A DNA stretch of 64,000 nucleotides, from positions 1 through 64,000 of the forward strand of contig NZ_MIYK01000010.1 in NCBI RefSeq assembly GCF_002907375.1. The letters run 5' to 3'. This document shows positions 5,426 through 16,343 of the stretch, piece after piece. Position numbers and translations under genes: made by a program. The notes beneath the pieces are model-generated. The model made no database searches. It was not told where the DNA came from and saw nothing but the letters and a program-made list of their open reading frames with translations. The DNA is from Fructilactobacillus lindneri DSM 20690 = JCM 11027. GTDB taxonomy: Bacteria; Bacillota; Bacilli; Lactobacillales; Lactobacillaceae. Within the stretch, counting starts at the first letter, position 1, and the number at the start of each line of letters is the position of its first letter.

Positions 5426-6744
5426 TTATTTTTTTATTAGATATTGATGCAGATAGTAAACTGGGATTCCTGCTAGAGTGATTGCCAAACCAACCATTGC
5501 TAATTCTGTTTCATTAATTACCGTGGTTATTACGATAAACAGTGCACCAATAATAGCAATGATAGGTACTACTGGATACCACAACACACGGTAAGGACGT
5601 TCTAATTCGGGTTCTTTTTTACGCAGTACGAAGAGGGCAATAAAGAGTAAACAGTTAAAAATCCACATTACAAAGACCAGCATATCGGTCAAAAGATCAA
5701 AACTTCCTAATAAAATCATGATGATAGCAATAGTTAAAATAAACAGACTAGCGACATAGGGAGCTGCTGCTTTGTTTAATTTTTTAAATTGTTTACTAAA
5801 TGGCAATAGATTTTTACTTGCTAAAGCATAAGGAATCCTAGCCCCAGTCATAGTATAACCATTTACAGTTCCAAATACTGACACTAAAATACCGATGGTA
5901 ACTAGCTTACCGCCAAATTCACCAAATAATTTACCGGCGACTTCGGCAGCGGTATTGGTATTGCCAGCGATAGCATTGATTGGCATGTTTTTCAAAAAGA
6001 TCCAGTTCACTAATACATAGATAACCATGATAAAAGTTAATCCTAATACCACAGCTTTAGGGATATCTTTTTTGGATTTTTCATTTCTCCAGCGATATCG
6101 CCAATATTAATCCAGCCTTCATAGGCAAACATAGTGGCTAATAAGCCTCCTGAAAAGGCTGTTAGAAGGTTAGCGTGGTTGGTAGGTGCGATTGGTACAA
6201 AAGTTACATCAACGTGACCAGGAATGATTAAACCCACTACTACAATTAAAAAAATTGGAATTAATTTAAAGATTAAACTGATTGATTGAACTGTTCCGCC
6301 AACTTTGGCACCCATGGTATTTAAAGCAGTAATAAATATGACAACTGCAATTGCAATTGGAACGGCTAATGCCATGTTTAAGTGGAGTAAAGTTGTGACT
6401 TGGGTTCCAAAAATGATAGCTAAGGCGGCCATATTAGCGGGAACATAGATTAACATTTCTGCCCAGCCTAGTAGAAATCCACTGAGCGGTCCGTAGGTAT
6501 GTCGCATATATTGTACACTTCCTCCGGTTTCTGGGATTGCAGCTCCTAGTTCGGCTACGGTTAATCCTCCGCAAATAGTTAAAACTCCAGCTACTACCCA
6601 GGCTAGTAAGGTTAAACTAACTGAATGCGTTGCGTTTACAACACTAGCGGTTTTGAAAAAGACTCCGCCTCCAATTACAGTTCCCATTACTAATGCTAAA
6701 GCACTAAACGGTCCAATAGTTCGTTTTAATTTTTGTTCAGCCAT
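5426..6744 (-). pseudogene. steT: SteT-like serine/threonine permease (APC family), frameshifted
   Basis: The N-terminal part (6744-6043) and C-terminal part (6052-5426) together make a 439-aa, 12-span amino acid transporter. The N-terminal GTVIGGGVFFK loop, the LATMFAYEGW segment and the overall length match Bacillus SteT, a Ser/Thr exchanger. The break is in GEMKNPKK: codons should run on as DIPKAVVLG but need one more A in the A6 run (T6 at 6068-6073 on the plus strand). The upstream leader encodes a Ser/Thr-rich peptide followed by a terminator, which supports the substrate assignment. Either a contracted homopolymer in the real genome or a sequencing indel. Confidence 0.75.
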
Positions 6745-6778
6745 TTTTCTATCCCCTTAATTTCAATTTTCTATTTTG

Positions 6779-6897
6779 TAAAAAAAGAGCCTAGTTAGTT
6801 TAACTAACTAGGCTCTTTTACTTAATTTGATAATCGTAGAATATAAACGAACATCAGATGACCTAGTTAGCAACTCAACGAGTATCTAACTAGGCGT
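6779..6897 (-). promoter_or_regulatory. Leader attenuator with competing hairpins before steT
   Basis: Reading the minus strand there are four segments. CCTAGTTAG (6894-6886), CTAACTAGG (6870-6862), CCTAGTTAG (6812-6804) and CTAACTAGG (6798-6790) can pair as 1:2 plus 3:4, or as 2:3. The 3:4 stem extends to about 18 base pairs and runs into a T-tract (A residues 6779-6784), a classic terminator that ends 34 bases before the steT ATG. A 7-base stretch inside the leader-peptide codons (TCTAACT, 6943-6937) is also complementary to segment 1 (AGTTAGA, 6891-6885). This is the layout of a translation-coupled attenuator. Confidence 0.75.
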
Positions 6898-6925
6898 CCC
6901 AAACTAACCATACTTAGATACATAC

Positions 6926-6979
6926 TTACCAAGTAGAGTTAGAGGAGGAGTTGTTTTGTGTCATCATTTGTTTGTTCAT
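6926..6979 (-). CDS. Ser/Thr-rich leader peptide of steT attenuator
   Basis: A 17-codon open frame, MNKQMMTQNNSSSNSTW, starts at ATG 6979 with an AAGGGA site eight to nine bases upstream and stops at TAA 6926. Four of 17 codons are Ser (TCC TCC TCT, then TCT), two are Thr and four are Asn. It lies between a strong promoter and a competing-hairpin terminator in front of a Ser/Thr-type permease. A peptide coding for the transported amino acids in that position is what a ribosome-mediated attenuator needs. Translation is inferred, not shown. Confidence 0.65.
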   Translation of the reverse strand: MNKQMMTQNNSSSNSTW

Positions 6980-7011
6980 TGTTATATCCCTTTCTGTCTT
7001 CGTTACTTATG

Positions 7012-7040
7012 ATTAAACCATCAAAATTAAGGGAAGTCAA
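7012..7040 (-). promoter_or_regulatory. Promoter of steT leader
   Basis: On the minus strand TTGACT (7040-7035) and TTTAAT (7017-7012) are separated by exactly 17 bases. Transcription would begin about 25-30 bases before the leader-peptide ATG. Confidence 0.75.
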
Positions 7041-7073
7041 TCTTTTTTTAGAGAAACTTAAAATTTAAACGAG

Positions 7074-8057
7074 TTATGCTTGAGTTTGGAGTTTTGTTAC
7101 CCACTTTTGATAGGCAGATTCTTCATCAGTTGGCTGATAATCTGCCTTTGCAAAGTCATGATTTAGTAAGTCGGATTCATTGATGTTTAAATGACCTAAA
7201 TTAGTAGCATTTGCAATTAATTGCAGATGATATTCGCCATTTTCACTCGTTACTTTGACTTTTACCATGCCGCCGGGATTATAGACGGTGATTGTTTTTG
7301 CAAAATCACCCTGATAATGGTTAAGGGCATAGGCAAGGCTGGTCGATGACATCCCGGTTCCACAAGCATTTGTAAAACCAACTCCGCGTTCAAAAGTTCG
7401 AACAAATAATGTATCAGGTCCGATAATTTGAGCGAAGTTAACGTTAACGCCATCTGTGAAATAAGGGTTTTCTCCGTTTAAATAAGTTCCTAAATCCTTG
7501 AGTTTGTCAGATTTTAAAACTGCTTTCGAAACAAAACTAATCAAGTGGGGATTAGGTACGGCAATTGCAGTAAATTTTAAATCTGGATCTAATTCGGGAA
7601 CTTTTTGATCTCTAATCTGATCTGTTTTTAGATTAGAAAAGGGAAAATCTTGTTGATTGAAACGGATAGGGGAAATGGTAACCCCAAAACTCGGAACTTG
7701 GTCAGCTAAATCAGGATATTTTTCTACTGCTAAATCAGCGTCTCTCGTTTCCACTTTGAATTTAGTTTGACCATATTTATTGGCTAAATACCTTGAGACG
7801 GTTCGCAATCCATTGCCACACATGGAAGCAATGCTGCCATCAGCATTGACGACGGTCATTTTGCCCAAACAGTCAGCATGATCAGATTTATCAACCACTA
7901 AAATCCCGTCGATATTATTTAAATTTTTATAATCAGATTGTTTTAAAGCAACCGTTAAAGCAGAAATTTCGTTTAGTGTTGGTTTTTTAGAAAATTGAGT
8001 AACATCTAGAATGAAAAAGGTGTTTTCGGATCCGTGTATTTTCAGTAGTTTTATCAT
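7074..8057 (-). CDS. dapF: Diaminopimelate epimerase
   Basis: Interconverts LL- and meso-diaminopimelate, the last step before lysine and the source of the peptidoglycan cross-linker. The 327-aa protein keeps both active-site cysteine motifs: SMCGNGLRTVSRY (first Cys about residue 80) and NACGTGMSS (second Cys about residue 230). It is longer than many DapF proteins (about 275 aa), with an extended C-terminal tail. It lies ten bases after the aspartokinase gene on the same strand and has its own AAAGGAC site, so the two form a lysine-related operon divergent from the riboswitch-controlled one. Confidence 0.9.
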   Translation of the reverse strand: MIKLLKIHGSENTFFILDVTQFSKKPTLNEISALTVALKQSDYKNLNNIDGILVVDKSDHADCLGKMTVVNADGSIASMCGNGLRTVSRYLANKYGQTKFKVETRDADLAVEKYPDLADQVPSFGVTISPIRFNQQDFPFSNLKTDQIRDQKVPELDPDLKFTAIAVPNPHLISFVSKAVLKSDKLKDLGTYLNGENPYFTDGVNVNFAQIIGPDTLFVRTFERGVGFTNACGTGMSSTSLAYALNHYQGDFAKTITVYNPGGMVKVKVTSENGEYHLQLIANATNLGHLNINESDLLNHDFAKADYQPTDEESAYQKWVTKLQTQA

Positions 8058-9603: not shown

Positions 9604-9611
9604 TTTAACAA

Positions 9612-9778
9612 ATCAAATAGAGGTCGCAAATAACAAAATTAGTTAGCGGAGTTTTCCATTCAGCAAAGAAACTAACGAAAGGGTTGTTTGCCGAAGTGCC
9701 AAGTAATGGAGCTTGGTTAACTGGGACATAACTTAAAAGGTTATGGACTGTCGGAATTTATTCCGGGGAGCTATGTAT
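9612..9778 (+). ncRNA. Lysine riboswitch (L-box) aptamer
   Basis: Conserved L-box elements appear in order: ATAGAGGTCGC (9617-9627), GCGGAGTTTTCC, GAAAGGG...TTGCCGAAG (9677-9696), GTCGGAA..TTCCGG and the closing AGCTATG (9770-9776), which pairs with the first element as P1. A terminator follows and the DAP/lysine operon starts 108 bases downstream. Lysine binding should stop transcription before lysA. Confidence 0.92.
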
Positions 9779-9799
9779 AATCGATTCTAAAAGTAATTA

Positions 9800-16075: not shown

Positions 16076-16083
16076 ACAAATCA

Positions 16084-16343
16084 AAGATATGAACGAAAGA
16101 GTAACCGAATGCTGAATGCACAGAAAGTCACGAGAGTTGAAAAGTGACCATTCACTGAGGCGAACCACACTCGTGATGATCCAGTATATTCTAGAAAATA
16201 CTCGGTTTGCTCCGTTAAGAGCTGTACCTTACTAATTAGTAAGGTACCTGAGTAGATAGTAGTAATGCTATCTAAAATAGAGGTGGAATCGCGAACGAAT
16301 CGTCCTCAAGTTGTCATTTAATTGATAACTTGGGGACTTTTTT
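16084..16343 (+). ncRNA. T-box leader, probably histidine-responsive
   Basis: Stem I elements are followed by the T-box sequence AGGTGGAATCGCG (16281-16293). A strong terminator comes next: GTCCTCAAGTTGTCA (16302-16316) with TGATAACTTGGGGAC (16323-16337), then six T. The region preceding the T-box can fold into the usual antiterminator. In the specifier region GCGAACCACACTCG (16160-16173) the codon best placed, and followed by A, is CAC (16166-16168), which would mean tRNA-His. An ACC (Thr) reading one register away is not excluded. The downstream genes are an amino-acid ABC importer, which fits a starvation-induced system. Confidence 0.85.

Follow-up and report, generated by a model that had tools for sequence, protein, structure and literature searches.

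A serine-codon leader peptide upstream of a SteT/BasC-like permease in Fructilactobacillus lindneri points to a family of putative codon-swapped attenuators in Lactobacillales

The main finding from this analysis is that the leader upstream of a SteT/BasC-like permease gene in Fructilactobacillus lindneri DSM 20690 (contig NZ_MIYK01000010.1, whose first 64,000 nucleotides were analysed and are called the window here) is most likely, with a probability that we put at roughly 0.83, a ribosome-mediated transcription attenuator that senses the charging of tRNA-Ser, turns the permease on when charged tRNA is scarce, and belongs to a Lactobacillales family in which the sensor codons are swappable. 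An earlier note on this DNA had proposed a leader-peptide attenuator before a SteT-like permease, and the proposal holds, with both the Ser run and the alternative pairing conserved in relatives. The finding is larger than first noted: it is a new family inside a known kind of regulation, leader-peptide attenuation. We also consider it quite likely that, beside the T-boxes, the Lactobacillales have a second amino-acid regulon that is old and order-wide, in which one switch has been re-tuned by its leader codons for Tyr, Phe, Tyr plus Phe, Cys, Ser and perhaps Ile or Trp, and in which the codons predict gene function, as when Phe-rich leaders point to a divergent and unannotated prephenate dehydratase.

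Anatomy and conservation of the leader

The leader was read from the minus strand at 7040-6780, between dapF and the permease gene. It opens with a -35 box TTGACT (7035-7040) and, after a spacer of 17, a -10 box TTTAAT (7012-7017), the promoter that had been named before. A strict promoter scan, which requires an A as the second base of the -10 box and gives a mean of 1.1 on shuffles, lists no promoter in the leader, so the promoter call rests on our reading and on the recurrence of TTGAC(A/G/T)-17-TTTAAT upstream of the other six steT leaders. A Shine-Dalgarno sequence AAAGGG (6988-6993), read from the sequence and listed with the short open reading frame, then precedes a frame of 17 codons, MNKQMMTQNNSSSNSTW followed by TAA (6979-6926), which contains the four Ser codons described previously. 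The sensor codons TCC TCC TCT AAC TCT (S S S N S; 6935-6949) were assigned by reading, by comparison with relatives and by ribosome-masked folding. Among frames of 12-28 codons with a Shine-Dalgarno sequence and ATG in shuffled sequence, 11 of 5325 have at least four Ser in five codons, so that composition alone would yield such a cluster in about 0.2% of frames, and conservation of the run in relatives makes a chance origin unlikely.

Six segments, rather than the four (pairing as 1:2/3:4 or 2:3) suggested earlier, are needed to describe the RNA. Segment A (AACTCTACTTGG; 6929-6940) lies within the reading frame and is the stretch of peptide codons already seen to pair downstream; while the RNA is not being translated, its partner would be segment B (GTATCTAAGTATGGTT; 6906-6921). 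Segment B would pair with A in the off state or with segment C (CCTAGTTAGATAC; 6882-6894) in the on state, while segment D (CTAACTAGG; 6862-6870) would pair with C in the off state or, as antiterminator, with segment E (6803-6819) in the on state. The D:E duplex has a predicted energy of -16.4 kcal/mol, and none of 200 shuffles of D pairs as well. Segment E is the 5' arm of the intrinsic terminator and segment F (6783-6799), found by hairpin folding, is its 3' arm. The hairpin at 6819-6783 has 17 pairs and a 3-nt loop and runs into a U-run (6780-6786) that overlaps the end of F, in agreement with the terminator first noted before the permease. As a whole, the leader (7005-6779) has a more stable predicted fold than any of 200 shuffles (z -7.36). 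Plasmid and phage searches with the leader gave no match.

With these segments, we propose the following mechanism. When charged Ser-tRNA is plentiful, the ribosome would reach the stop codon and cover the start of B, leaving C:D and the E:F terminator to form, and the permease would be off. When charged Ser-tRNA is scarce, the ribosome would stall on the Ser codons and cover A, and B would pair with C; D would then be free to pair with E, the terminator would be blocked and the permease transcribed. With no ribosome on the leader, A:B would form, followed by C:D and E:F, and the switch would again be off.

The target gene itself (5426-6744, minus strand) consists of two overlapping frames, 6744-6043 and 6052-5426, separated by a one-base frameshift that sits in an A-run at 6043-6052. 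Its relatives are open frames of 439-477 amino acids among the matches listed, down to 47% identity, and the frameshift in the window may be a sequencing error or the mark of a decayed gene. The protein is an APC permease and belongs to the AA_permease_2 family; the best NCBIfam match of the two halves is TIGR00911, below its cut-off. The intact F. sanfranciscensis orthologue matches PDB entries 9h76 and 6f2g at about 3e-122 (6f2g, E 3.5e-122), of which we take 6f2g to be BasC, an Ala-Ser-Cys exchanger. BasC is described, in an extract of the source, as a bacterial alanine-serine-cysteine exchanger (PMC6472337). The permease is thus placed by relationship among the SteT/BasC-like LAT exchangers, with transport of Ser/Thr or of Ala/Ser/Cys as the predicted function.

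The leader is found upstream of the orthologous permease in seven of the ten Fructilactobacillus genomes (G000, which is the genome of the window, G001, G002, G004, G005, G006 and G008), and the Ser run is retained in all seven. Five of these leaders encode MSSSNSTW plus a few residues, the window encodes NSSSNSTW, and F. sanfranciscensis (G006) encodes NSSSSFALQ. In the other three genomes (G003, G007 and G009) the permease has no such leader, nor did our first RNA model, R1, match before it. In the two other contexts viewed, the genes upstream are not those of the window. Thr, which had been suggested beside Ser as a sensed amino acid, fared less well than Ser: Thr/Ala-Trp codons also recur upstream of non-Ser targets, and F. 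sanfranciscensis swaps the Thr/Trp codons yet keeps the stem through a compensatory G-C pair. We therefore rejected Thr, which the window leader probably does not sense, and retained Ser.

Members of the wider family and their target genes

A DNA search with the leader returned additional places that do not precede steT, with longer matches in G003 and G006 and 36-base matches in G002, G004 and G005. At these places peptides such as MTSQLTHQPSFYFYFTWNPRRSK lie upstream of the same RNA core, which precedes a PTS_EIIC_2-family transporter (checked in locus L085) and an aminotransferase. Model R1 added one place of this Phe/Tyr (FY) type in the genome of the window and another in G009, and in whole genomes it detects G003:C8:50664 at 4.5e-6 and G006:C16 at 2.4e-4. 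At E 0.01 or better, a count made with no distant- or shuffled-genome control, R1 matches 32 of 397 genomes, nine of them Fructilactobacillus. Eight loci were viewed among the 23 genomes outside the genus. Five (L089, L090, L091, L093 and L097) have no fitting frame and were taken as chance matches, and the other three (L092, L094 and L098) were not counted as members, having Cys-rich peptides with a different RNA. These three, from three genomes of genus g52, carry a Cys-rich leader of the MQKLATQMMMCCPCCES type with a hairpin and a T-run, followed by a gene for a lipoprotein that by eye resembles an OppA-type binding protein; such a leader is perhaps an independent Cys attenuator.

A sequence-pattern search had 72 matches, spread over ten genomes, and its reversed control 49; members were picked from the former by eye. 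Together with R1 at a low threshold, this search added the Cys-rich peptides ACCCTC, CCCCTC, CCCTCC and YCTCT, which precede an SDF-family symporter, an M20 peptidase, an SBP_bac_3 protein (whose nearest model, at a score under the cut-off, is the cystine-binding PRK11260) and, in one case, a contig end. The same searches added peptides of the NFYYFTYF type upstream of an MFS transporter and shikimate genes. In these Cys, Tyr and Phe members an extra segment, Z, lies just 3' of the stop codon and can pair with A; the on state would then consist of Z:A, B:C and D:E, with the logic of the switch unchanged. The family may thus be pictured as one RNA core (B, C, D and the terminator) joined to peptides with different sensor codons.

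A second covariance model, R2, was built from nine Cys/aromatic places, and those nine match it by construction. R2 has matches in 72 of the 397 Lactobacillaceae genomes, spread over 18 of 40 genera; the count, again made with no distant- or shuffled-genome control, includes 63 genomes outside Fructilactobacillus. In a sample of 395 Lactobacillales genomes it matches 26, of which 15 are outside Lactobacillaceae. Nine loci were viewed among these 15 genomes, and eight of them fit, with Tyr-rich frames, while L346 did not. By eye, seven of the eight precede a TrpX-type binding protein (checked in L336 only, with NF041285 as its match, below the cut-off) and the eighth a SBP_bac_3 protein. The two models recover each other's members in whole genomes, R1 as given above, and with an E cut-off of 0.5 R2 detects eight of the 14 Ser/FY places (best 7.0e-4), the window leader being a weak match at E 0.375. 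For further work a set of 78 R2 places was used; two known Ser/FY places had been left out of it and one place from another R2 search added; 76 of these 78 loci were taken into one further search. A short frame led by a Shine-Dalgarno sequence is present in 76 of the 78 places under a rule that allowed it to end from 45 nt before to 50 nt after the start of the core, and 75 of these frames end 0-11 nt before the core; L323 and L332 have no frame by this rule.

The codons fit the genes that follow. We counted the last ten peptide residues at the 78 R2 places by downstream gene, with target classes assigned from short sequence strings and Pfam run on representatives only. In the MFS/aro class all 47 places have a frame, with means of 3.6 Tyr and 2.2 Phe, and in the aroE class all six do, with 4.5 Tyr and 1.3 Phe. 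All eight NhaC places have four Tyr and no Phe each, whereas the five places before a 175-amino-acid protein, all with a frame, have three to four Phe and none to one Tyr. The four Cys-rich places, one of which lost its target to a contig end, have a mean of 4.0 Cys and frames in all four. The remaining eight of the 78 places fall in no class, and two of them have no frame. Judged from these sequences, the leader codons follow the target genes, and this includes the Ser run before the BasC/SteT-like exchanger. In one locus (L269:2-1417, minus strand) the gene after a Tyr/Phe leader encodes an MFS transporter that carries a chorismate mutase type II domain at its C-terminus.

The 175-amino-acid protein (L302:2425-2952, minus strand, and relatives) follows Phe-rich leaders and, by eye, lies in an aro cluster in L151. 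It has no Pfam or PDB sequence match, and the pheA label on its class was given by eye. Its predicted structure (pLDDT 88) has prephenate dehydratases at Foldseek ranks 1-5 (E 7.1e-9 to 1.0e-6, TMq 0.43-0.51). Its best matches in VIA-align are 6vh5_C at Z 9.7 (rmsd 5.8, 155 aligned) and 2qmw_B at Z 9.6 (rmsd 4.9, 151 aligned), and a TctC-type binding protein (Z 9.2) and others tie with the prephenate dehydratases in that comparison. Such resemblance of the predicted fold to the catalytic part of prephenate dehydratase is suggestive only.

The exchange of codons over a constant core also bears on what the leader senses. The peptide might instead be an arrest peptide, in the manner of ErmC-type leaders or TnaC, and respond not to tRNA charging but to a drug or a free amino acid, sensed as a small molecule within the ribosome tunnel. 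The residues SSSNSTW, which are invariant in six of the seven steT leaders, would suit such a peptide, but the RNA core is constant across members whose sensor residues (S, C, Y, F) differ from target to target, and the recurrent T/A-W codons sit in stem A, where F. sanfranciscensis replaces them with a compensatory base change. We consider an arrest peptide unlikely, and sensing of tRNA-Ser charging remains the reading that we prefer.

Pairing, ribosome position and direction of the proposed switch

Pairing was scored separately in the small sets and over R2. In 12 Ser/FY sequences the A:B pairs have 95.1% of cells paired, with two of 12 pairs changed on both sides, and the off pairs A:B and C:D together reach 96.0%. 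The on pairs B:C in these sequences reach 90.8%, as high as which come only three of 500 shuffles, and their double-change pairs do not go beyond shuffles (193 of 500 reach them). In the nine Cys/aromatic sequences the off pairs are 97.2% paired (0 of 500 shuffles), and the on pairs are 94.6% paired, not beyond shuffles (178 of 500), with their double-change pairs reached by 377 of 500. Over 80 aligned R2 matches (79 distinct; three rows are second matches in the same loci and were kept in the pair counts), 95.5% of the cells in the off pairs are paired and 20 of the 24 pairs change on both sides, in 228 cells; all five measures are reached by none of 500 shuffles. Slid versions of these pairs are at most 35.7% paired, a control that matters too, since related sequences can beat shuffles without structure. 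On pairs B:C (90.9% paired, 61 both-sided cells) and Z:A (82.3%, 57 both-sided cells) exceed all 500 shuffles in cells paired, both-sided cells and covariation score, while their numbers of double-change pairs are reached by 427 and 78 of 500 shuffles, respectively. R2 was built on the off structure, so that the alignment leans to the off pairs, and B:C and Z:A lie outside the model. The off pairs (A:B, C:D) thus covary strongly and the on pairs (B:C, Z:A) less so. Compensatory stem changes, for which relatives had been proposed as the test, are accordingly present in the off pairs, but in the on pairs of the small sets double changes do not exceed shuffles. A set of 87 members, made of 75 R2 places, seven of seven Ser leaders and five of seven FY leaders, was used for D:E and for folding by ribosome position. 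All 87 have a hairpin before TTTT, a count made without shuffle comparison, and in all 87 the D:E duplex is better than 95% of shuffles of D.

Folding was then made dependent on the ribosome, which was masked over -15 to +12 nt relative to the first base of the A-site codon, on transcripts ending with C. In the window leader B:C has a probability of 0.98 when the A-site holds any of the codons S, S, S, N, S and T or the N before them, 0.80 on the W codon and 0.09 at the stop; without a ribosome B:C is 0.00 and A:B 0.89. The FY class behaves similarly, with B:C at 0.91-0.94 on F/Y codons and 0.00 at the stop. The mean B:C of the R2 class is 0.61 at the best positions and 0.05 at the stop, where A:B is 0.91, and without a ribosome A:B is 0.61 and B:C 0.18. 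When transcripts are folded up to C, mean B:C on the target codons exceeds the value at the stop in every one of the 81 members compared, six R2 places of no class being left out. B:C is also above the stop state on codons outside the sensor run. Between target and other codons there is a clear excess for Ser (0.61/0.36), FY (0.91/0.35) and aroE (0.85/0.45), a slight one for MFS (0.45/0.36), NhaC (0.43/0.36) and the prephenate-dehydratase-like class (0.35/0.31), and a difference in the wrong direction for Cys (0.21/0.38). This weak contrast in several classes slightly reduces our confidence in the mechanism.

The sign of the switch, which the earlier note had held could not be settled from the sequence, can be inferred. 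A ribosome stalled on the Ser codons would cover A, free B for B:C and leave D for D:E, and stalling should therefore raise expression of the permease. Both this predicted sign and the proposed sensing of tRNA-Ser are backed by the sequence and by the folds up to C. A caveat comes from equilibrium folding through D, which was tried as a proof of the switch and set aside: outside the FY class it gives no switch apart from partial dips in L002, L006 and L007. In this folding C:D is 0.96-1.00 in all states of the window leader and on average 0.89-0.91 in the R2 class, while four of five FY members switch. With E included, the mean pairing of E to upstream segments in the Ser class is 0.44 without a ribosome and 0.47 at the stop and rises to no more than 0.65; the three values are 0.40, 0.39 and 0.49 for the R2 class and 0.68, 0.70 and 0.81 for the FY class. 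Because C:D wins at equilibrium in most members once D is present, our model needs kinetic trapping of B:C, and we infer that the on state would require B:C to persist while D and E are made. In Bacillus subtilis RNA polymerase can move ahead of the ribosome, and attenuators of this type would be weakened by this unless the polymerase pauses.

The equilibrium C:D values of the window leader would favour a reading in which the leader works with the opposite sign, so that a stall on Ser codons led to termination, for instance through C:D forming whatever B does. Against this, B:C can form before D exists and is likely only with a ribosome near the Ser codons, four of the five FY members switch even at equilibrium, and it would be odd for stalling to turn off genes for uptake or synthesis of the scarce amino acid. 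Such a reversed switch is, in our judgement, quite improbable.

The conserved structure is strong, and it raises the question whether the RNA binds a ligand or a tRNA directly, as a riboswitch or a T-box-like element would, with the short frame incidental. T-boxes are indeed common in these genomes: at E 0.001 or better each of the ten Fructilactobacillus genomes has 16-28 matches, at least one of them above the Rfam cut-off. In the window leader, however, Rfam gives no match at gathering score, with sub-threshold matches only at E 0.027-0.57, and the T-box model RF00230 has no match within 6700-7100, as had been noted before. A gathering-score search of nine family loci likewise returned no amino-acid leader and only an unrelated FMN riboswitch. 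Moreover, a short frame accompanies 76 of 78 cores, with target-fitting codons in the classes tested, and the predicted folding up to C varies with ribosome position. Direct binding is thus very unlikely. Finally, it is hardly credible that the region is only the 3' end of dapF, which stops just upstream at 7074, with its terminator and chance hairpins and an unregulated permease: a terminator scan does list the near-symmetric stem, on the plus strand only, but the promoter boxes are conserved, the leader accompanies the permease even in contexts with other upstream genes, the stems show compensatory changes, and homologous cores lie upstream of other targets.

Relation to known systems and neighbouring elements

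T-boxes are usually taken as the way in which Lactobacillales sense uncharged tRNA. The family described here shares with T-box riboswitches (RF00230) its physiological role and some targets, such as NhaC, but in the T-box the tRNA is bound by RNA, whereas the proposed sensor here is the translating ribosome. In its A-F ladder the family resembles the enterobacterial his leader. It shares with the enterobacterial his, trp, leu and thr attenuators a short peptide with sensor codons, mutually exclusive hairpins, an intrinsic terminator and a stall that would favour the antiterminator; it differs from them in belonging to another phylum, in using one core for several amino acids and in having no Rfam match. 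As of 2013, the attenuators in Rfam were those for His, Leu, Thr and Trp, and Ser and Cys are not named in the relevant extract (PMC3766115). His leader peptides are described for Bacillus hisS/hisZ and for his operons of other Firmicutes (PMC2965389, PMC9413887). Like our family, these are regular leader peptides standing in for T-boxes, but they concern His only, and for Lactobacillales the extracts of these sources describe T-boxes, not leader peptides. The ilv operon of Staphylococcus aureus has a Leu/Ile-rich attenuator peptide (PMC5794164), likewise a Firmicute leader peptide with a choice between terminator and antiterminator, but one for branched-chain biosynthesis only, and the extract of that paper mentions no shared core with exchanged codons. 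The same paper cites predicted branched-chain leader peptides in Lactococcus lactis and Streptococcus, so leader peptides in Lactobacillales are not new as such. Two further candidates, uORFC-8-2 before cysS in Rhodobacterales and uORFC-13-1 before aroF in Acholeplasma (PMC8632094), also combine an upstream frame and structure before amino-acid genes, uORFC-8-2 with Cys codons and a terminator; going by their descriptions in the source extract, they are set apart by occurring in other groups and before single targets. For Lactobacillales, the titles and abstract openings listed in our literature search include no leader peptide specific for Ser, Cys, Tyr or Phe, and a codon-swapping attenuator family in lactic acid bacteria seems to be undescribed.

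Such a family suggests that translation-based sensing operates in parallel with T-boxes in the same genomes. NhaC, which is under Tyr T-boxes in other Firmicutes according to an extract of PMC2494555, is a target shared by both, and replacement between T-box and leader peptide is thus directly testable. The core structure stays constant while the codons change, which makes the family a natural experiment in how attenuator specificity changes. The codons also suggest substrates or roles for the targets, namely Phe/Tyr for the EIIC-like transporter, Tyr for NhaC and Phe synthesis for the 175-amino-acid protein, and the family bears on transcription-translation coupling in these Firmicutes.

Some single members may extend the range of codons. 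In L289 (G000:C18:48819-48923), from the genome of the window, the peptide MTNKTTFQNNKIIIFFVLM is followed by a ketopantoate-reductase-like protein and an aminotransferase, and Ile or branched-chain specificity is possible for this one member. Two others, L322 (G113:C53) and L324 (G370:C1), have single Trp codons (RWQS and AWLSY) before TrpX and a POT-family transporter, respectively; Trp specificity of these two is a possible but weak suggestion. The same genome as the window also has a Cys-codon member, MTTFMNAYQSNCCCTCCMI in L154 (G000:C10:69574-69675), just past the window, followed by a SBP_bac_3 protein closest to a cystine-binding model. Within the window, a lysine riboswitch lies at 9610-9781 (plus strand) upstream of lysA and dap genes, and a T-box leader at 16080-16310 (plus strand), matched by the RF00230 model, scores 78 bits, under the Rfam gathering score of 93, before a gene that by eye resembles an amino-acid ABC permease.
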